NCBI GenBank assembly: GCA_947627995.1
Contig: CANQYE010000004.1
Location: 1 to 60,403, forward strand
DNA: 60,403 nucleotides
Direction of reading: 5' to 3'
Origin: an uncultured Bacilli bacterium
GTDB lineage: Bacteria; Bacillota_I; Bacilli_A; RF39; UBA660
Every line of letters starts with the position of its first letter. Position 1 is the first letter of the stretch. Positions 9,927 through 54,272 of this stretch are shown here, one piece after another. The notes under the pieces were generated by a model that saw only the letters and a program-made list of their open reading frames with translations, ran no database searches and was not told the origin of the DNA. A program made the position numbers and the translations under genes.

Positions 9927-10397
9927 AATTTTAAAAATTAATAACTTTATAGTTGCTACTATAAAATATGCAAAATAAGCATAAATAAATAACCAAATAT
10001 AAGTATATTTTAATTTACTTGTTAAGAAATAAAATAAAAATGGCAAAGATATTAAACATAATATAATTACATACGTAAATTTATCTGTCTTTATTGTGTT
10101 ACTAATAGATTCTATTTTGTTATTAATTGCAAAATCAATACTAAGATAAAAACAAATTGTAAAAAATAACATTTTATTAACTAAAGTATTTTGAAAAAAA
10201 GAGAATATAATAAATATTAATATTAAAAAAGTAGGAAAAATTTTAAAAACTTTTTTATAATTTTGCTTAAATAAAGTTTTCAAAGTTGTTTTTTTATTAA
10301 TTTTATTATTTTTAATAGCATCTTTTATGACACAATAAAAATAAACTAACCAAATACAAAAAGTAAAAATACTAATAATTTTATTCAAAAACATCAC
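9912..10397 (-). CDS. small integral membrane protein, unknown
   Basis: This protein of about 160 residues has four or five hydrophobic helices (residues 5-23, 50-67, 72-88, 108-124, 132-153), and its termini and loops are Lys-rich. I do not recognise the family. The start is uncertain. GTG and ATG codons overlap the AAGGAAGTGA ribosome site, and a TTG nine bases downstream at 10388 has better spacing. It follows the small gene at 10409 and sits between obgE and rpsB. Confidence 0.6.
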   Translation of the reverse strand: MMFLNKIISIFTFCIWLVYFYCVIKDAIKNNKINKKTTLKTLFKQNYKKVFKIFPTFLILIFIIFSFFQNTLVNKMLFFTICFYLSIDFAINNKIESISNTIKTDKFTYVIILCLISLPFLFYFLTSKLKYTYIWLFIYAYFAYFIVATIKLLIFKINNKK

Positions 10398-10408
10398 TTC
10401 CTTAAAAT

Positions 10409-10633
10409 TTATTTAATAATTAATTTACCATTATATTTTTTATGATATTTATCACTAAATTTATTAAATATATCATTATTTGATTGATGATTTAATACAT
10501 TAATAACAATATTTGATATGTCATAATTTTCTAATATTTTAAAAACTCTATCATCCATTTTGTCTACTAAATGTCCATTTACTTCATCTAATAAATCTAC
10601 ATATAATGTTTTATTTGTATAATATATATCCAT
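10409..10633 (-). CDS. small protein, possibly a degenerate STAS domain
   Basis: This 74-residue protein has alternating strand and helix segments (LYVDLLDEVNGHLVDKMDDR; VFKILENYDISNIVINVL; NGKLIIK). These resemble a shortened STAS/anti-sigma-antagonist fold. The DSSG phosphoserine loop of classic antagonists is not present. I chose ATG 10633 because GGTGATAGGA lies before it. It lies between obgE and a small membrane protein gene. The fold assignment is tentative. Confidence 0.4.
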   Translation of the reverse strand: MDIYYTNKTLYVDLLDEVNGHLVDKMDDRVFKILENYDISNIVINVLNHQSNNDIFNKFSDKYHKKYNGKLIIK

Positions 10634-10701
10634 TCCTATCACCAATTGTAATGTAACAGATATTAATTTAATTTTCTATAACTTCGACAAAAGATCCTAA
10701 A

Positions 10702-11970
10702 TTATTCTTTAAAAATAAATATATTATCACATATAGATATTTCATCGCCTTTTTTAGCACCCAATTTTTCTAACTCTTCTTCTACCCCCATTTGACGAAG
10801 TTTACGACCAAATCTAATTACTGCATCATCTAAGTCAAAACGAGTCATTTTAAATAATCTTTCTATTTCATTACCAGAAACAATCCATAAATCATTTTCT
10901 TTTTTTATTTTAAATGGTTCTTTTTTTTCGAATTTAAATACCACTTCATCATTTTGATTTTTAATTGATGGCTTTAATTTTTCATCTTCTAAAGCATCTG
11001 CTAATTTAATTAATAATTCATCAATTCCGGCTCCAGTCATCGCACTTATTTCACAAATTTCAATGTCTGGATATTTATTTTTAAATTTTATTAAATTATC
11101 TTTAGCATTTTCCAAATCCATTTTATTAGCTATTACTATTTGCCTTTTTTGTACTAAACTTAAACTATATTGAGAAAGCTCAGTATTTATTTTTTCATAA
11201 TCTTCAATAGGATCACGATAATCAACTCCGGCCATATCAATAACATGGCCTATAACTTTTGTCCTTTTTGTATGTCTTAAAAATTGATGACCTAATCCTG
11301 CCCCTGATGCTGCTCCTTCAATTAAACCAGGTAAATCCGCCATTACAAATTTACGATGATCTTTTAATTGAACTACACCTAAATTGGGACTTAATGTTGT
11401 AAAATGATAAGCTGCAATTTTGGGTTTGGATGCACTTATTAAACTTAAAATAGAACTTTTCCCAACACTAGGAAAGCCTACCAAGCCAACATCGGCTAAT
11501 ACCTTTAATTCTAATTTTACAAATAACTCTTCTCCAGGCTCTCCTAATTCACAAATTTTTGGAGCAGGATTATCATGAGTTGCATAATATTTATTTCCAT
11601 GTCCCCCTCTTCCACCATGGGCAACTATAAATTCTTGCTCATCATTTACTAAATCTACTATTATTTTATTACTATCAATATTCGTAATAGTAGTTCCTTC
11701 CGGTACTTTTATAATTAAATCATCTGCATTTTTTCCGTGCCGATTAGATCCTTTACCATTTTCTCCTTTTTTACCTTTAATTATTTTTTGATATTTCAAA
11801 TCAAATAAAGTAGTTAAATTTCTATCCACTTTAAAAATAATATTGCTTCCTCGTCCACCATTTCCTCCGTCTGGTCCGCCCATAGGCACATATTTTTCAC
11901 GTCGAAAAGATGAACAACCATCTCCACCTTTTCCAGCAATTAATTTTATATTTATTTCATCAACGAACAT
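10702..11970 (-). CDS. obgE: GTPase Obg
   Basis: This 422-residue protein has all three Obg parts. The glycine-rich Obg fold covers residues 1-158 (FVDEINIKLIAGKGGDGC; GGDGGNGG-type loops). The G domain starts with the P-loop GFPSVGKSS, with DLPG and NKMD motifs. A C-terminal OCT domain (about 345-422) ends in ISICDNIFIF. Obg binds the 50S subunit and acts in ribosome assembly and the stringent and sporulation responses. The start follows TTAGGTGAGAGT. Confidence 0.96.
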   Translation of the reverse strand: MFVDEINIKLIAGKGGDGCSSFRREKYVPMGGPDGGNGGRGSNIIFKVDRNLTTLFDLKYQKIIKGKKGENGKGSNRHGKNADDLIIKVPEGTTITNIDSNKIIVDLVNDEQEFIVAHGGRGGHGNKYYATHDNPAPKICELGEPGEELFVKLELKVLADVGLVGFPSVGKSSILSLISASKPKIAAYHFTTLSPNLGVVQLKDHRKFVMADLPGLIEGAASGAGLGHQFLRHTKRTKVIGHVIDMAGVDYRDPIEDYEKINTELSQYSLSLVQKRQIVIANKMDLENAKDNLIKFKNKYPDIEICEISAMTGAGIDELLIKLADALEDEKLKPSIKNQNDEVVFKFEKKEPFKIKKENDLWIVSGNEIERLFKMTRFDLDDAVIRFGRKLRQMGVEEELEKLGAKKGDEISICDNIFIFKE

Positions 11971-45587: not shown

Positions 45588-46307
45588 TTAAATTTTTGAA
45601 ATATCAGTTTTTCTTCTAATAGCAATTATTAAAGCAATTGCTGCAAGTGTACCCAAACCTATAAAAATATAATTTGAAAATACACCTGTTTGTGAATTAT
45701 CAACCGTAATAGTTAATATAAAACTTGGAAAGTTACAATTTTCATCTACGCTAAAAGAAGTATTAGTTCCTTCTGAAGTTGTTACTTGTGAATTAGCTTT
45801 ATCTAAAACCAACATAGTCTTATTATCAACTTCTTTTTCCATTCCCTCTTTTAAAGTTAAACGATAAGTTATAGATGCTTCTTCTCCAACATTTAAATCA
45901 AAATTACGCCATTGAATATCGTATTTTGGATTTTTATCTTCTTCAACAGTTTCCCCTTTTGATGGAGCATCATAACTTAAATTATAATATTCTTTAACAT
46001 CACTTGTTAAAGCAATATCTACTTCTACACCAGTTCTATTTTTAGTAAGTTCTGTAGAACCATTGTTAGCAATTTTAAGTTGAACTGTAATCTCCCTTTT
46101 TTCAACATCAATATTAGTAATTTCGGTATCCATTGTTGATCCATCGCCATCTCCGTCTGTACTAAAGATGTTAACAAATTGATCCCCTTTTTGTTTTACT
46201 GCTTTTAAATCGATAGTTTCGGCTGCATTAACATTTAATAAAAAACTTAATGCAAAACTTAAACATAACACTATCACGCTAGATAATTTCAATAACTTTT
46301 TCATCAT
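45588..46307 (-). CDS. secreted surface protein with NSQTG sorting signal
   Basis: This 239-residue protein has a cleavable signal peptide (MMKKLLKLSSVIVLCLSFALS, cut near VNA-AE). A beta-rich ectodomain follows, with an Asp/Gly patch STDGDGDGSTMD. The C-terminal sorting signal is NSQTG (residues 204-208), a hydrophobic segment (FIGLGTLAAIALIIAI) and the basic tail RRK. The motif resembles NPQTN/LPXTG signals recognised by sortases. The divergent neighbour is a class B sortase, so this is its likely substrate. Confidence 0.8.
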   Translation of the reverse strand: MMKKLLKLSSVIVLCLSFALSFLLNVNAAETIDLKAVKQKGDQFVNIFSTDGDGDGSTMDTEITNIDVEKREITVQLKIANNGSTELTKNRTGVEVDIALTSDVKEYYNLSYDAPSKGETVEEDKNPKYDIQWRNFDLNVGEEASITYRLTLKEGMEKEVDNKTMLVLDKANSQVTTSEGTNTSFSVDENCNFPSFILTITVDNSQTGVFSNYIFIGLGTLAAIALIIAIRRKTDISKI

Positions 46308-46453: not shown

Positions 46454-48025
46454 ATGAAAAAAGTAGCAGTCAAAGTAAGTGAAAATAAAATATTTTTTTC
46501 GTATATTTATATTGACCCTACTATAATCAATGTAATAATCGAAGAAAATAGCAAAAATAAGTATATCTTTAGTGAAATATATTTAAAAAATAACTACAAA
46601 TTATTTTTTTCTTTTATAAATAATATTTTAACTACTAAAAATATTAAAACGATAGTTCTTGAAGATGTTAATTTATTACCATTAATTGTCAAAATAATCA
46701 ATGATATAAAGAAAAAAATATATTTGATAATAAGCGATGATGCTATTATTGATGATGATATTACTAAAATTTTGTTAAAAACAAAATATATAGAAAAATT
46801 GAATTGTTATGATATAACTAAAAAAAATGCCGAAATAATTGCTAATAATAATATTATTTTTAAAACCAGAAAAGAATTGCTTACATTAAGTAATTTTTCA
46901 ACTTCAAATGAATTGGATAATTTTAGTGATATATATTTTAAAGAAGACGTTAAAGTAATAAATAATTTTAATAATAACGACTTAGTTGATTTTGAAAATT
47001 TTTGCAAACAGAATAAAAATTTAAAAAATATATATTTTTATGGATTTCCCTCTCAAAATGCAGAATCAATATTGGATAATGTTAAATTTAATTATTTAAA
47101 TAAAATAAAAATATCATTATACGTTGATTCAAATAACATTGATATTTTTCGAAAATCTATTAAAAAAATTAAAAAATTAAAAAAAAGGTATAGTAAAAAT
47201 AAAAATATAAAATTCGAAGTTATATATTCGGAAGAATATTATAAAAAAAATTATTTTAAACAATTATCATTAATCACTTTGAAAGTCTGTTGTTTAGTAG
47301 GAATAGTTTTCGCTATATCAATAATAAGTATAATGGCTTATAATAATTATATGTCGAATAAATCAATAAAAGATATAAAAATTATTGCTACCCCTAAAAA
47401 AATAACGCTTACAGAACCTATTGTTGAACAATCAGAAACACAAGAACCAGAAACTTCCCAACAAGAATCTAAAGTCAATCTATCAGAAAATTATGATGAA
47501 TTATTAAAAATAAATCCAGATACCATAGGTTGGCTAAAAGTGAATAATACTAATGTGGATTTACCAATAGTTCAAACAACTGATAATGATTATTACTTAG
47601 ATTATAATTTTTATAAAAAAAGGAATTATAATGGTTGGGCCTTTGTAGATTATCGAAATGATATAAACAATTTAGATCAAAATACTATTATATATGGTCA
47701 TAATGGTACCATTTTTGGTTCTCTTTATAATACACTTAAAAATTATTGGTTAAATAATGAAAATAATTACATTATAACTTTCAATACTAGAACTGCTAAA
47801 ATGCAATTCCGTATATTTTCGATATATAAAACAACACCCGATTTTTATTATTTAAATATTAATTATCCAAGCGAGATTGATTTTATGAATTTTATATCTG
47901 AAACAAAAAATAGAAGTATTCATAATTTTAATACTGAAGTTACACAAAATGATCAAATATTGACTTTATCTACTTGTATAGAAAAAGGTACACAAAGAGT
48001 TGTAATTCATGCTAAAAGAATTTAA
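46454..48025 (+). CDS. class B sortase with large N-terminal cytoplasmic domain
   Basis: Residues 345-523 form a sortase B domain: NYDELLKINPDTIGWLKVNN, the catalytic His416 in YGHNGT, Cys508 in LSTC and Arg515 in TQRVVIHAK. A single membrane helix (271-296) and a Glu/Gln-rich linker (about 320-345) precede it. Residues 1-270, which would be cytoplasmic, form an unfamiliar alpha/beta region rich in Lys, Asn and Ile. Usual sortase B is about 230-250 residues, so about half of this protein is extra. Divergent from a protein with an NSQTG signal. Start after AAGGTGG. Confidence 0.87.
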   Translation: MKKVAVKVSENKIFFSYIYIDPTIINVIIEENSKNKYIFSEIYLKNNYKLFFSFINNILTTKNIKTIVLEDVNLLPLIVKIINDIKKKIYLIISDDAIIDDDITKILLKTKYIEKLNCYDITKKNAEIIANNNIIFKTRKELLTLSNFSTSNELDNFSDIYFKEDVKVINNFNNNDLVDFENFCKQNKNLKNIYFYGFPSQNAESILDNVKFNYLNKIKISLYVDSNNIDIFRKSIKKIKKLKKRYSKNKNIKFEVIYSEEYYKKNYFKQLSLITLKVCCLVGIVFAISIISIMAYNNYMSNKSIKDIKIIATPKKITLTEPIVEQSETQEPETSQQESKVNLSENYDELLKINPDTIGWLKVNNTNVDLPIVQTTDNDYYLDYNFYKKRNYNGWAFVDYRNDINNLDQNTIIYGHNGTIFGSLYNTLKNYWLNNENNYIITFNTRTAKMQFRIFSIYKTTPDFYYLNINYPSEIDFMNFISETKNRSIHNFNTEVTQNDQILTLSTCIEKGTQRVVIHAKRI

Positions 48026-49333: not shown

Positions 49334-49367
49334 AAAAAGTAAGAAAAATAATATTTTCTTACTTTTT
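49334..49367 (-). terminator. terminator of the bacteriocin operon
   Basis: Minus strand AAAAAGTAAGAAAA/TTTTCTTACTTTTT, a perfect 14-base stem with a 6-base loop. It overlaps the stop codon of the last peptide gene and separates the operon from rpsU. Confidence 0.85.
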
Positions 49368-49512
49368 AACCAAATGTGCAATTAATTAAGGTTCCTAAAT
49401 GTCGTCCTAATTTTAAAATAATTTCATAAATACTACCTATTCCACATAAAAGTATTGGGCTTAATAAAATAGTTATTATCAACTTTATTTTATTTTTAGA
49501 GACATTTAGCAT
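49366..49512 (-). CDS. third small peptide of the bacteriocin operon (peptide or immunity)
   Basis: A 48-codon frame whose ATG overlaps the stop of the preceding peptide gene by seven bases. It has a basic N-terminus (MLNVSKNKIK), a hydrophobic helix (residues 11-28) and a C-terminal segment LGRHLGTLINCTFG. That segment resembles IGRSLGTAIRRI in the preceding peptide. It lacks a double-glycine leader, so it may be a leaderless peptide or an immunity protein. The operon terminator starts at its stop. Confidence 0.62.
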   Translation of the reverse strand: MLNVSKNKIKLIITILLSPILLCGIGSIYEIILKLGRHLGTLINCTFG

Positions 49513-49670
49513 AAATCATTACCAATTATTCTTCTTATAGCTGTCCCTAAGCTTCTGCCAATATCTAAAAAGGAATTAACTGCTTTACTAATAGCACTAA
49601 TAAAAGAACCAGTTAAAAAATTAGTTGCGCCTCCCTTTATTAAAACTAAATCTTTCTTATCTAATCGCAT
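49506..49670 (-). CDS. double-glycine bacteriocin precursor B
   Basis: A 54-codon frame with the leader MRLDKKDLVLIKGG, which ends in the double glycine cut by C39 peptidases. The predicted core is 40 residues (ATNFLTGSFISAISKAV..., ending GNDLC), amphipathic, with a GRSLGTAIRRI segment. It starts two bases after the stop of precursor A without its own clear ribosome site, implying translational coupling. Core sequence is not one I recognise. Confidence 0.82.
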   Translation of the reverse strand: MRLDKKDLVLIKGGATNFLTGSFISAISKAVNSFLDIGRSLGTAIRRIIGNDLC

Positions 49671-49672
49671 AA

Positions 49673-49816
49673 TCAGCTATGACATTTAAGTGGTCTTACA
49701 ATACCATCTATAATACCAATTGCAAATGTTATAATAGCAGATATTCCTAAAACCACAGCCACATTTATTGCACCTCCTTTAATATTTTTTAATTCATCGT
49801 TTGTTAAATTACTCAT
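49673..49816 (-). CDS. double-glycine bacteriocin precursor A
   Basis: A 47-codon frame with a textbook class II leader, MSNLTNDELKNIKGG, cut after GG. The predicted 32-residue core is very hydrophobic (INVAVVLGISAIITFAIGI) and ends DGIVRPLKCHS with a single Cys. A strong AGGAGG site precedes the ATG. It lies eight bases behind the accessory gene in an operon with a peptidase-exporter. With precursor B it could form a two-peptide bacteriocin (inference). Confidence 0.88.
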   Translation of the reverse strand: MSNLTNDELKNIKGGAINVAVVLGISAIITFAIGIIDGIVRPLKCHS

Positions 49817-49824
49817 CAAACCTC

Positions 49825-50271
49825 CTAAAATAATATTTTTAATATTTTTTTATACATTTTTTGTTTATTTGTAAATATTTTAATTGGAATTACTAAATTA
49901 TTTTTTTGATATTTCATTGGCAAATTAATAGATATTTCAATTTTTTGAAAACTTATTTTATTAATTTCATCGACTTCATACTCTCCTACTCTATGAACGT
50001 GATAATTAAATATTTTGTTATCAATTTTAATCTTATTACCACTTAAAATATCTTTAGTAGTATTTAATTCGCTATATATATAATATTTAAAATCGTTATT
50101 TTCTTTTAAAACAATTATATTAGTATTAATAATATCGAAAATATTAACAAATATTATTATTATAAAACCCATAATAATAGTTACAATAATAAATATTATT
50201 AAAAATTTTAAATTAATTGGTTTTTGATTTAAAAATTTTTCTTTATTATAAAAAATATAATCATGAATCAT
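49825..50271 (-). CDS. short bacteriocin-export accessory-like membrane protein
   Basis: This 148-residue protein has a short cytoplasmic N-terminus, one membrane helix (about 23-45) and a beta-rich outer part ending MPMKYQ-like NLPMKYQKNNLVIPIKIF. Position and topology match the HlyD-like accessory proteins of class II bacteriocin exporters, but those are 400-470 residues with a long coiled coil that is missing here. It overlaps the exporter gene by four bases (ATGA). Confidence 0.6.
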   Translation of the reverse strand: MIHDYIFYNKEKFLNQKPINLKFLIIFIIVTIIMGFIIIIFVNIFDIINTNIIVLKENNDFKYYIYSELNTTKDILSGNKIKIDNKIFNYHVHRVGEYEVDEINKISFQKIEISINLPMKYQKNNLVIPIKIFTNKQKMYKKILKILF

Positions 50272-52340
50272 GCCAATTTATCATCACCAATTCTAATTAC
50301 TTTTTCAAATAATTTATCCATGTCTCTATGACAGACATAAATTAAAGTTTTATTATTTAAAAATTCCAATAAATCTTTTATTATAGCTTTCTCCAATTCT
50401 TTATCTACTTCAGATAATGCTTCATCTAATATAATAATATTATTATCTCTAGCCAATGCTCTAGCAAGTAAAATACGTTGCCTTTCTCCACCAGATAAAT
50501 TGATCCCATTTTCAGCTAAAAAAGTATCTAATCTTAATGGCTTATTATCTATTATTTTATCTATACGACAAATTTTAATAATTTTATTCAATTGTTCTAA
50601 AGTCAATTTCTGCTCTAAATCGATATTATTTTTAATAGTATCACTAAATATATTTTCTTTTTGTGATAAATAAGTGATATTTTTCCTAATAGTTTCTAAT
50701 GAATAATCTAAAATATTGATATTATTAACAATAATATTACCTTTTTTAGGTTTTATTAACCTATATAATAATTTACAAAATGTACTTTTTCCACCTCCTG
50801 ATTTGCCTTTAATCATGATTTTTTCATTTTTATTTATTTTTAATGAAAAATTTGAAAGAATATTATTATAATTATTATAAGTAAATGTAATATTTTTAAA
50901 TTCTATATCACCATTTAAAAATGATTCATTTTTAGGATTTAAATTTTCACAAGGAACATTATAAAAATCACTTAATTTGCGGAATACAAACTTAATAAAA
51001 CTTATTTTAGGTATTGTAACTGCTAAATTTTTCAGTGGTTCAAATATATAAAATATTAGAAAATTTATTGTAATTAAATCCACAATAACAAGTTCATTTT
51101 TTAAATATAAATATAAACCTAATGTCAAAATAATAAATAAACCAATCTCTATTATAAAATTTTGAAAAGCATTTTGTATATTTAATAAATGATTAAATGT
51201 AAAATTATGCTTTAAATATTTAATAAAACTATATTCTATTTTTTCCATGTATTTTTTTTCATAATTATTATTTTTAATAGTCTCCAAACTATTTATGCCT
51301 TCAATAAGTTTTGAATTAAAATCTGTTTCATATAATATGTTTTCTTGCAATTTTTTTTGAATAAATTTATTAAATATAAATGTTATAAAGATATAAAATA
51401 AAATAATGAATAGTATAATAATAAATATTTTATTATTTATCCTATATATAACAAAAAATGTAATAAATGCTAATAGTAAATCTAAAAACAAACTTATAAA
51501 TATTTTTGAAAATAATGTTTTTATCTCATTTAATTCAGATACCCGTGTGATAATTTCTCCAGGAGTTTTACTTTTAGCATAATTAGAAGGAAGATAAAAT
51601 ATATGATTCAAATATGGTATAAAAAGTTTTATATCAATATTTTTATTTAAAAAATTTTCTAAATAATTTCTAATTGATTGTAACAATATTTTCAATACAT
51701 AAATTATTAAAAATAGAACAACACTGATTTTAAATAGTATAAAATTGGTAGAATTATCAATTGCATTTACAGCTACTTTAAAATAAAAACTAGTAAATAT
51801 ATTGCAACCCATGAACAAAATAGATATAAGAATAATTTTTATTAACAGAGATTTATATTGAAAAAATAAATTTACTAAAATTTTTAAAATAGTATTTGTG
51901 TTTGTGATTTTTGGTATGATAGATATTGGAGTTACAATTATTACAAAGTTATTCCAAATATTTTTCCACTCATCATAGCTAATTGCTCTATTCCCGTAAG
52001 CCGGATCCATAATATGTATCTTTTTTTTTCGCTTATCTATTTTATAAATAACCACAAAATGGTCATATTTTTCATATATTGTAACATGAGCTATAACTGG
52101 TAAGTTAATTTTATCACATATCAAATATTCGAAATTAAGTTTTAAGCCTATAGCATCAAAGCCATATTTTTTTAAAGTCTCAATTATATGAAAAGCAGTT
52201 GTTCCATTAGAAGAAGTACAACTATCAATTTTTAACTTTTCTAATGGAACATAACCATTAAAATATTTAATTATTGACAACATACAACATGCACCGCAAT
52301 CTTTAAAATCTACTTGTTTTACCAAATATTTTCCTCGCAT
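50268..52340 (-). CDS. C39-peptidase bacteriocin ABC exporter
   Basis: This 690-residue protein both cleaves and exports double-glycine peptides. The N-terminal C39 peptidase has the catalytic Cys15 in QVDFKDCGACC, His in YDHFVVIYK and Asp in HIMDPAYGN. Six membrane helices cover about 150-430. The ABC domain has Walker A GKSGGGKST, signature LSGGERQRILLARAL and Walker B IIILDEALSEVD. ATG 52340 follows GAAGGGAGAG. It heads an operon ending with the three peptide genes, which supply its substrates. Confidence 0.93.
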   Translation of the reverse strand: MRGKYLVKQVDFKDCGACCMLSIIKYFNGYVPLEKLKIDSCTSSNGTTAFHIIETLKKYGFDAIGLKLNFEYLICDKINLPVIAHVTIYEKYDHFVVIYKIDKRKKKIHIMDPAYGNRAISYDEWKNIWNNFVIIVTPISIIPKITNTNTILKILVNLFFQYKSLLIKIILISILFMGCNIFTSFYFKVAVNAIDNSTNFILFKISVVLFLIIYVLKILLQSIRNYLENFLNKNIDIKLFIPYLNHIFYLPSNYAKSKTPGEIITRVSELNEIKTLFSKIFISLFLDLLLAFITFFVIYRINNKIFIIILFIILFYIFITFIFNKFIQKKLQENILYETDFNSKLIEGINSLETIKNNNYEKKYMEKIEYSFIKYLKHNFTFNHLLNIQNAFQNFIIEIGLFIILTLGLYLYLKNELVIVDLITINFLIFYIFEPLKNLAVTIPKISFIKFVFRKLSDFYNVPCENLNPKNESFLNGDIEFKNITFTYNNYNNILSNFSLKINKNEKIMIKGKSGGGKSTFCKLLYRLIKPKKGNIIVNNINILDYSLETIRKNITYLSQKENIFSDTIKNNIDLEQKLTLEQLNKIIKICRIDKIIDNKPLRLDTFLAENGINLSGGERQRILLARALARDNNIIILDEALSEVDKELEKAIIKDLLEFLNNKTLIYVCHRDMDKLFEKVIRIGDDKLA

Positions 52341-52449
52341 TTTCTCTCCCTTCAAAAGATATTTACGTTTTTTTTAGCATGTTTCCTTTTTTCTTGAATA
52401 TTTTTTTATTAAAATAATAAAATTTAATAGTACGAAAGGGAAGATAAAA

Positions 52450-52956
52450 ATGATTAACAAACAAAAACTATGGTTCTTAACATTATTTAGTTTAATTTTA
52501 GTATTAAGTATTTATTATATTACAATGCCAGAAGATGTTTTGAAAGACATTAAAACAGAAACAGTTTCCAAAGAAACTAAAAATAATAAGGCTACAATTG
52601 ATGTTGAGGAAAGTGAAGCATTAACAGCACTAAGAATTGAATCTGATGAAAAAGTAATTAAAGAAATGAATGCATTACAAGAAATATTACTTGACAAAAA
52701 ATCTACTACTGAAGATAAAAATAATGCATATGAGTCATTAAAAGATTTAAATTTAAATAAAGGAAAAGAAGAAAATTTAGAAAAATTAGTAAAAAACGAA
52801 TTAAAACTTAAAACATTTATTAAAATTAATAAAGATCAAATAAAAGTAGTAGTTGATGAAAAAAAACACGATGCTAAAATAGCTAATCAAATAATTAGAT
52901 TAATTCAAAAAGAATTTGATAATCAAATGTATATTACAGTTAAATTCCAAAGTTAG
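52450..52956 (+). CDS. spoIIIAH: stage III sporulation protein AH
   Basis: This 168-residue protein matches SpoIIIAH: a signal-anchor start INKQKLWFLTLFSLILVLSIYYITMP, a helical linker (ALTALRIESDEKVIKEMNALQEIL) and a C-terminal YscJ/FliF-like ring-building fold (FIKINKDQIKVVV, IANQIIRLIQKE). SpoIIIAH in the mother cell joins forespore SpoIIQ to form the feeding-tube channel. In Bacillus it ends the spoIIIA operon; here it stands alone. Confidence 0.85.
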   Translation: MINKQKLWFLTLFSLILVLSIYYITMPEDVLKDIKTETVSKETKNNKATIDVEESEALTALRIESDEKVIKEMNALQEILLDKKSTTEDKNNAYESLKDLNLNKGKEENLEKLVKNELKLKTFIKINKDQIKVVVDEKKHDAKIANQIIRLIQKEFDNQMYITVKFQS

Positions 52957-52978
52957 TCATTTTTAGGCATTAACTCTC

Positions 52979-53005
52979 ACTATCTTTAAAATAATTCATA
53001 AAATA
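52979..53005 (+). promoter_or_regulatory. candidate sigma-K promoter of gerE
   Basis: AC (52979-52980), 16 bases, CATAAAATA (52997-53005), a perfect CATANNNTA. Bacillus gerE is transcribed by sigma-K. Confidence 0.6.
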
Positions 53006-53048
53006 ATATGAAAGTTATTAAACCCATCTGAAGAAAGTGAGGGAAAAA

Positions 53049-53255
53049 ATGAAAAAAAGTATTTTAACTGATAGAGAACAAGAAGTATTTGAATTATTAG
53101 TTCAAAATAAATCAACTAAAGAAATAGCAAATGAATTAAATATAAGTGAAAAAACTGTGCGCAATCACATATCTAATGCCATGCAAAAATTAGGAGTAAA
53201 AGGACGTGCGCAAGCTGTAGTTGAATTATTAAAATTGGGTGAAATATCATTATAA
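53049..53255 (+). CDS. gerE: GerE, late sporulation transcription factor
   Basis: This 68-residue stand-alone LuxR-type helix-turn-helix protein is nearly the same as Bacillus GerE. LTDREQEVFELLVQNKSTKEIANEL, then NISEKTVRNHISNAMQKLGVKGRAQ, then VVELLKLGE are visible. GerE adjusts sigma-K genes for coat assembly. I chose ATG 53049 after GTGAGGG. A terminator and gerM follow. Confidence 0.93.
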   Translation: MKKSILTDREQEVFELLVQNKSTKEIANELNISEKTVRNHISNAMQKLGVKGRAQAVVELLKLGEISL

Positions 53256-53260
53256 ATTCG

Positions 53261-53283
53261 AGTCGATTTTTTCGACTTTTTTT
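53261..53283 (+). terminator. terminator of gerE
   Basis: AGTCGA/TCGACT with a 5-base loop followed by a T run. Confidence 0.7.
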
Positions 53284-53318
53284 AATTAAAATTTCATATT
53301 ATTAAGTAAGGTGATTAT

Positions 53319-54272
53319 ATGTTTAAAACATTATGTGTAAAAAGAATAACAATAGCAACTTTAGCTCTAATTATTTTAGGATTATTATGTTTATTTCCAA
53401 GTAAAAACAATAATTTAGAAATTGAACAAAAAACTAAATATAACAGCAACTATTTAGAAAATAGTATTTATCTATTAGATAAAGATGAATATGTTGCAAG
53501 AGTAAATATTCTTTATAAAAGTAATAATGATTTATCAAAAATAAAAGAAATTATAGAATCACTAACTATTAATAGTTCAAAAAAAGAATATATCCCCAAT
53601 GGGTTTACACCATTAATACCGGAAGGCACTAAACTTTTAAATTTTGATTTACAAAACAATATATTAAAAATAAATTTTTCTAAAGATATCTTAAAAGTAA
53701 ATCAAAATAATGAAGAAAAAATGATTGAAGCTCTAATCTATTCTTTAACAACAATTGATAGTGTTAAAAAGATTATGATATTCGTAGAAGGCAATCAATT
53801 ACAAGAATTACCTCATTCTAAAAAAAGTTTACCATTAACATTAGATAGAAATTATGGGATAAATAAAGTATATAATATTGATAATATTAAAAATACTACT
53901 AAAACAACAGTTTACTTTATCAATAAATTTAATGATTATTACTATTATGTACCTGTAACAAAAATTAATAATGAAAAAGCTAGTAAAATAGAAATAATAA
54001 TTGAAGAACTTAAAAGTTCTCCAAATATTCAAACAAATTTAATGAGTTTTTTAAATAGTAACACTGGGTTATTAAATTATGAAATTTTAGAAGATAGTAT
54101 AAACTTAAGCTTTAATAAATATTTACTTGATGACTTTGAAAAAGAAAATATTTTAGAAGAGGTTAAATACGCAATAGCCTTATCTGTTAAAGATAGTTAT
54201 GAAGTTTCGACTTTAAATTTTTATGTTAGTGATAAATTAATTGATTCATCTAATCTTTTAAATTTAGATTAA
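53319..54272 (+). CDS. gerM: GerM sporulation/germination protein
   Basis: This 317-residue protein has an N-terminal membrane helix (residues 9-27) and two GerMN domains. The first runs about 60-165 (IPEGTKLLNFDLQNNILKINFSKDI), the second about 195-305 (LLNYEILEDSINLSFNK). GerM is exported into the space between mother cell and forespore and helps assemble the SpoIIIA-SpoIIQ channel. That fits the nearby spoIIIAH. No lipobox Cys is evident. A CATATTATT site at 53295 may be a sigma-E/K -10. Confidence 0.85.
   Translation: MFKTLCVKRITIATLALIILGLLCLFPSKNNNLEIEQKTKYNSNYLENSIYLLDKDEYVARVNILYKSNNDLSKIKEIIESLTINSSKKEYIPNGFTPLIPEGTKLLNFDLQNNILKINFSKDILKVNQNNEEKMIEALIYSLTTIDSVKKIMIFVEGNQLQELPHSKKSLPLTLDRNYGINKVYNIDNIKNTTKTTVYFINKFNDYYYYVPVTKINNEKASKIEIIIEELKSSPNIQTNLMSFLNSNTGLLNYEILEDSINLSFNKYLLDDFEKENILEEVKYAIALSVKDSYEVSTLNFYVSDKLIDSSNLLNLD

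Follow-up and report, generated by a model that had tools for sequence, protein, structure and literature searches.

Among the systems described so far, the one that comes closest to the locus reported here is cibABC of the pneumococcus, which is universal in Streptococcus pneumoniae and controlled by competence; Streptococcus mitis carries many Cab variants (PMC13059744). CbnZ, the short immunity protein of a two-peptide bacteriocin, has one transmembrane domain with its N-terminus inside (PMC6957408), and sigma-H-family factors are reported to activate competence genes in Lactobacillus sakei, Listeria and Staphylococcus aureus (PMC3364868, PMC4754846, PMC3486894). We analysed a stretch of 60,403 nucleotides (the window hereafter; contig CANQYE010000004.1 of assembly GCA_947627995.1) from an uncultured bacterium of the order RF39 in the GTDB taxonomy, in which an earlier note, made from the letters alone, had pointed to a compact bacteriocin operon. 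The operon encodes a C39-peptidase ATP-binding cassette (ABC) exporter, an accessory membrane protein, the precursors of two short peptides, A and B, whose leaders end in a double glycine (GG), and a third short protein, C (Table 1). Judged by its distribution, this cassette is a near-universal, vertically inherited core-genome operon of RF39 and not a sporadic bacteriocin locus. By analogy with cibABC, we propose with a probability of slightly less than one half (about 0.48) that it may be a fratricide-like system, acting on membranes through two peptides, that belongs to the competence or transition state.

With the family represented by one genome for each genus, 130 of 145 genomes proved to encode the exporter, in a single copy each at the threshold used. 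Within the order, peptide B occurs in 270 of 288 genomes, which cover 97 of 102 genera; outside it, a sample of about 340 Bacilli contained no full-length B. When 395 genomes of the class were searched, every full-length B match fell inside one family and eleven further matches covered the leader region only. The carriers include Candidatus Faecisoma merdavium (L200), which has been placed in RF39 (PMC8035907), an order predicted to be spore-forming (PMC10868615). The genes keep the sequence exporter-(accessory)-A-B-(C) across about 120 genera, and rpsU and/or yqeY lie downstream in about half of the loci. Exporter distances agree with those of YqeY (Mantel r 0.59, p 0.0005), which indicates vertical descent. 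A phage or mobile origin was rejected, as viral contigs yielded no relatives and PHROGs matches were to generic ABC transporters only. Leader matches in Mollicute and other Bacilli (L308, L326-L328) were likewise set aside as relatives, since their cores are unrelated and no homologue of the exporter lies nearby; these GG-leader open reading frames (ORFs), at about 5544 in L308 (reverse complement) and about 6086 and 6374 in L326 (plus strand), belong to small-genome Bacilli of another family (f4) and have cores of up to 139 aa.

The earlier note had placed two GG-leader peptides beside a C39 exporter, and this part stood: the leader pattern fits two ORFs only in the window, A and B, against a mean of 0.04 in shuffled windows. 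Hidden Markov models (HMMs) detected A in 117 of 121 loci and B in 117 of 121, both together in 109, where they are normally adjacent; 222 of 227 precursors have a leader that ends in GG, and the GxxxG motif occurs in 111/113 A cores and 110/112 B cores (GIIDG and GRSLG, respectively, in the window). A cores are hydrophobic with a median of 31 aa, B cores are cationic with a median of 40 aa and a net charge of +3, and most cores hold a single cysteine near the C-terminus (one in each core of the window). In the window the core of A measures 32 aa (3272.9 Da, monoisotopic, reduced) and that of B 40 aa (4211.3 Da); a disulfide-linked A-B dimer would weigh 7482.1 Da. Invariant in the sampled alignments are G34, G38 and C45 of A and G38, G42 and C54 of B. 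Within six genera the ratio of nonsynonymous to synonymous polymorphism (pN/pS), a rough figure here, is 0.36 for A cores, 0.40 for B cores and 0.42 for the exporter, and is looser for the leaders (0.50 and 0.56), C (0.64) and the accessory gene (0.67). By these ratios, purifying selection holds the cores as tightly as the exporter and more tightly than the leaders, the accessory gene or C. One locus (L036, at about 10351-10921 in exporter-forward orientation) holds a second tandem A-B pair, that is, two A-like and two B-like ORFs, both pairs being degenerate with respect to the consensus.

The cores had been described as unrecognised, which proved wrong for A and right for B. Peptide A scores 29.9 bits against TIGR03949, the class IIb family of lactobin A/cerein 7B (cut-off 21.5), and 23 of 33 relatives match that family at E 0.001; the B sequence of the window has no NCBIfam match at E 0.001 and falls outside TIGR03949. 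The database search of both cores that the earlier note suggested recovers a known family for one peptide and essentially nothing for the other. The pair has the sequence features of class IIb, a likeness from which bacteriocin status cannot be declared on sequence alone.

The third frame was considered as a further core peptide and ruled out as such, being leaderless and matching the core of B only; it is instead a B-like membrane protein. Its family is represented at this position in 53 of 113 loci, with a start 7-17 nucleotides inside the end of B in 48 of them. In addition to a basic N-terminus (median +3 over 15 residues), the members share a stretch of hydrophobic residues and a G...GT segment like that of B. 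Profile comparison relates C to B with a probability of 92.5% and to A with 0.2%, and family databases returned no useful match for C. Most loci with C also have the accessory gene (45 of 52; Fisher p 0.00016). Given this resemblance, it is plausible that C is the immunity protein, a membrane-anchored imitation of B. In several loci that lack C (L034, L038, L043, L057), prepilin-like starts such as MKNKNGFISTSIMISFFMVF directly follow B and possibly belong to type IV pilin-like proteins.

The exporter contains the Pfam domains Peptidase_C39 (PF03412), ABC_membrane (PF00664) and ABC_tran (PF00005), together with Walker and signature motifs, and scores 401 bits against TIGR01193, under the subfamily cut-off of 524. 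Its catalytic set Q9/C15/H94/D112 is intact and invariant among about 110 relatives, and no second C39 protein was found in the 0.97-Mb genome from which the window comes. The accessory protein combines one transmembrane helix with a beta domain (AlphaFold2 mean predicted local distance difference test, pLDDT, 91.7); its best Foldseek matches are the membrane fusion proteins BesA, ZneB, Spr0693 and MacA (probability 0.96-1.00, E 0.03-0.14), in alignments of about 85 residues that we take to be the beta-barrel domain. As a lead at the level of the modelled fold, it may be a minimal HlyD-like adaptor of membrane-fusion type, and not a full member, since it consists of just the helix and the beta-barrel-like domain and is devoid of the lipoyl and hairpin domains of HlyD-like adaptors.

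It is worth considering how the operon might be switched on. The element AAAAGGAAWT-N13/14-CGAATAATATA lies 15-25 nucleotides upstream of the exporter start, its position and -35 box being conserved in relatives, and it agrees with the published sigma-H boxes RNAGGAWWW / RNNGAATWW (PMC8510167). Scored with an exporter-derived matrix, it exceeds the shuffled 95% threshold in 46 of 114 exporters as against 5 of 555 other genes. Where the element recurs within a genome, it also precedes comEA-comEC, dnaG-sigA, recA, ruvB, topA and spoIIAA-sigF; 9 of 30 comEC loci pass the threshold (binomial p 1e-5), mostly just before the gene that precedes comEC, at the start of comEA (comEC was named partly from sequence and comEA from position). 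A sigma-A promoter for the exporter was rejected, with 0 of 113 matches versus 5.7 expected and 48 of 60 at rpsU. The genome of the window encodes, after mrnC-rlmB, a SigH-like factor that scores 65-84 bits with SigH models, below the curated cut-offs, and 56 of 58 genomes sampled have a homologue; such a factor, we infer, would be the regulator of the operon. Three BRO/KilA-N-type-like regulator genes, recognised by eye in L436, L444 and L445 (genomes G081, G041 and G006), carry the same element.

The arrangement that the earlier note had read, with exporter, accessory gene and three short frames running in one direction at gaps or overlaps of 2-8 nucleotides up to a 14-bp hairpin, was located in full; the hairpin had been overlooked by a consensus scan because it is A+T-rich.

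Table 1. Features of the peptide operon and its borders in the window
Feature	Position	Strand	Description
Exporter gene	52340-50268	minus	C39-peptidase ABC exporter, 690 aa
Accessory gene	50271-49825	minus	148 aa; 4-nt overlap with exporter gene
Peptide A precursor	49816-49673	minus	47 codons; 8-nt gap after accessory gene; leader MSNLTNDELKNIKGG, core AINVAVVLGISAIITFAIGIIDGIVRPLKCHS
Peptide B precursor	49670-49506	minus	54 codons; 2-nt gap after A; leader MRLDKKDLVLIKGG, core ATNFLTGSFISAISKAVNSFLDIGRSLGTAIRRIIGNDLC
Protein C	49512-49366	minus	48 codons; 7-nt overlap with B; leaderless, basic N-terminus, transmembrane stretch, B-like LGRHLGT
Hairpin at operon end	49334-49367	minus	14 base pairs, A+T-rich; computed folding energy -14.5 kcal/mol, z -5.9
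Promoter-like element	52357-52390	minus	AAAAGGAAAC (52390-52381), 13-nt spacer, CGTAAATATCT (52367-52357)
rpsU promoter	49332-49304		directly beyond operon hairpin; strong, sigma-A-like

Adjoining the exporter and divergent from it (52450-54272, plus strand) lie spoIIIAH, a gene for a stand-alone GerE-like helix-turn-helix protein of 68 aa and a Germane-domain, GerM-like gene. Elsewhere in the window, a 523-aa membrane protein (46454-48025, plus strand) has a C-terminal half that looks sortase-like by eye, and beside it (45588-46307) is encoded a secreted protein with what appears, again by eye, to be a C-terminal anchor.

The spoIIIAH-gerE-gerM trio raised the question of a sporulation-specific function, which was rejected as the main explanation: the trio lies nearby in just 26 of 119 loci, and the exporter is devoid of the sigma-E/G/K-type boxes that are seen in relatives at spoIIIAH (sigma-E-type, 10 of 25) and gerE (sigma-K-type, 6 of 22). 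Moreover, seven sampled genomes (G005, G033, G036, G038, G043, G055, G057) have kept SigH, ComEC and the peptides although a full Spo0A and a clear SigF are missing from them. The cassette thus persists where sporulation has been lost, which favours a link to competence or the transition state.

From the operon, its leaders, the catalytic set of the exporter, the conservation, the resemblance of C to B and the recurring promoter element, all read in the sequence, it is tempting to extrapolate to cleavage, pairing, killing, immunity and the sigma factor involved. A sigma-H-type promoter would turn the operon on together with genes of DNA uptake (comEA-comEC), recombination (recA, ruvB) and early sporulation (spoIIAA-sigF), so that peptide release would coincide with the competence or transition state. 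Both unmodified peptides would be cut after GG and exported by the C39 exporter, with the minimal adaptor beside it; once outside, hydrophobic A and cationic B would pair through their GxxxG helices, possibly aided by a disulfide that joins the one cysteine of each, and make membranes permeable in the fashion of class IIb. The released pair would lyse sister or near-kin cells that are outside this state and so provide DNA and nutrients, as cibABC does in the pneumococcus, while protein C would shield the producers by occupying A or the target. A bolder version, which we consider doubtful, holds that the cassette is a defining part, shared across the order, of the RF39 competence or transition programme in which the two peptides form a possibly cysteine-linked pore or signal and C serves as a membrane-anchored decoy conferring a new kind of immunity, by imitation, the whole being no usual weapon.

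Several observations weigh against the fratricide proposal. The classic sigma-H targets spo0A (0 of 30) and spoVG (0 of 29) lack the element in this order, that is, the positive controls failed; the window's own element scores 3.9 against a shuffled 95% of 6.4, its -10 half being weak; and the matrix behind these scores was built from the exporters themselves. When three mismatches were allowed over all genomes, the raw pattern was not clearly above the reversed control, and the regulon was therefore read in the few genomes with repeated close matches. No comEC was seen in some carriers of the peptides (e.g., G003 and G034), though draft genomes are not complete. About half of the loci have no recognisable C, nor has the closest relative (L032), so that many carriers show no candidate immunity protein. 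Finally, synonymous sites are near saturation, hence the roughness of the pN/pS values.

How far do other explanations account for the same locus? That it encodes a new two-peptide bacteriocin, as the earlier note had proposed, agrees with the GG leaders, the C39 exporter, GxxxG in both cores and the side-by-side occurrence of A and B throughout the order; in its original wording it is not supported, as A belongs to a known NCBI bacteriocin family, C is no part of the product and the locus is a near-universal core operon, not strain-specific. In its plain form, an ordinary class IIb bacteriocin aimed at other gut species and fixed in the order by happenstance, this explanation draws on the leader, the exporter, the GxxxG pair and the TIGR03949 membership of A, yet it sits badly with near-universal presence, vertical inheritance and cores under purifying selection, as well as with the restriction of full-length B to the order (0 of the roughly 340 Bacilli sampled) and its absence from viral contigs. 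Bacteriocin loci usually vary from strain to strain. The Cab variants of S. mitis illustrate this variability. Even granting that C resembles a short single-transmembrane immunity protein of the kind described for CbnZ (PMC6957408), we regard an ordinary bacteriocin as unlikely.

More unlikely still would be a secreted signal, a pair of pheromones through which cells would synchronise their competence or their sporulation entry instead of killing. Strong conservation of the cores, a GG leader with C39 export as in signals of the ComC/competence-stimulating peptide (CSP) type and a promoter element common to competence and sporulation genes speak for a signal, but no two-component receptor pair stood out as a regular companion in the gene orders read (where neighbours are partly annotated), two long hydrophobic and cationic GxxxG peptides are unlike short pheromones, and signals nearly identical across an order would not tell species apart. 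We assign a similarly low probability to a structural housekeeping pair that stays with the envelope of the cell producing it, where the two helices would form a channel or scaffold in DNA uptake or in remodelling of the envelope. Membership of the core genome, the invariant cysteine in each peptide and the promoter element in common with comEA-comEC would suit such a role, and the half of carriers without C may have no toxicity to guard against; the leader and the family resemblance to bacteriocins, together with the existence of a B-like protein C in some loci, tell against it.

RF39 are widespread, uncultured and genome-reduced gut bacteria, and the peptide pair has been kept through this reduction. 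A near-universal secreted pair that appears tied to a promoter of competence and sporulation entry would rank with the few social behaviours predicted for these bacteria, and it may be a built-in device for sibling killing or signalling and not an ordinary bacteriocin. The promoter element makes an RF39 transition regulon readable from sequence, and the locus offers exact peptides for synthesis and a testable hypothesis of immunity by imitation. It is also a reminder that a locus of bacteriocin type can belong to the core genome and need not be an accessory weapon.

Set beside known systems, the exporter is of the same kind as PCAT1, whose peptide CtA (PDB 7s5j) aligns weakly with the A and B leaders only (E-values of just 0.13-0.17), the cores being unrelated. 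The Mbov_0121/MAG1140 pair of mycoplasmas (NF045998/NF045999) likewise joins a C39 ABC exporter to an accessory protein of similar size; the window accessory matches NF045999 MAG1140 weakly and over nearly its full length (E 0.7), and both window proteins score below the cut-offs of these families. With class IIb lactobin A/cerein 7B (TIGR03949) and lactococcin G the cassette shares the GG leader, the C39 exporter and GxxxG in both cores, and it differs from them in that B is without a family, conservation is order-wide and each peptide has a conserved single cysteine. ComX/SigX belongs to the sigma-H family, and the promoter here, apparently of that family's type, would add a likeness to cibABC. 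The two-protein glycine-zipper bacteriocin of Caulobacter (PMC5380434) is comparable by description in its two-protein, glycine-zipper logic, but it is alphaproteobacterial and contact-dependent. The short immunity proteins CbnZ, BrcI, EnkIaz and AbpIM (42-55 aa) are of similar length to C, and the topology of CbnZ is that expected for C from its basic N-terminus; a likeness to one of the peptides, such as that of C to B, is not described for them in the part of PMC6957408 at hand. Like cibABC with its immunity protein CibC, the RF39 cassette combines two peptides with an immunity gene (here the candidate C), a putative tie to competence and lineage-wide presence (PMC13059744). It differs in that its conservation spans an order, the exporter gene lies in the same operon along with that of a minimal adaptor, C resembles B and the cores form families of their own.

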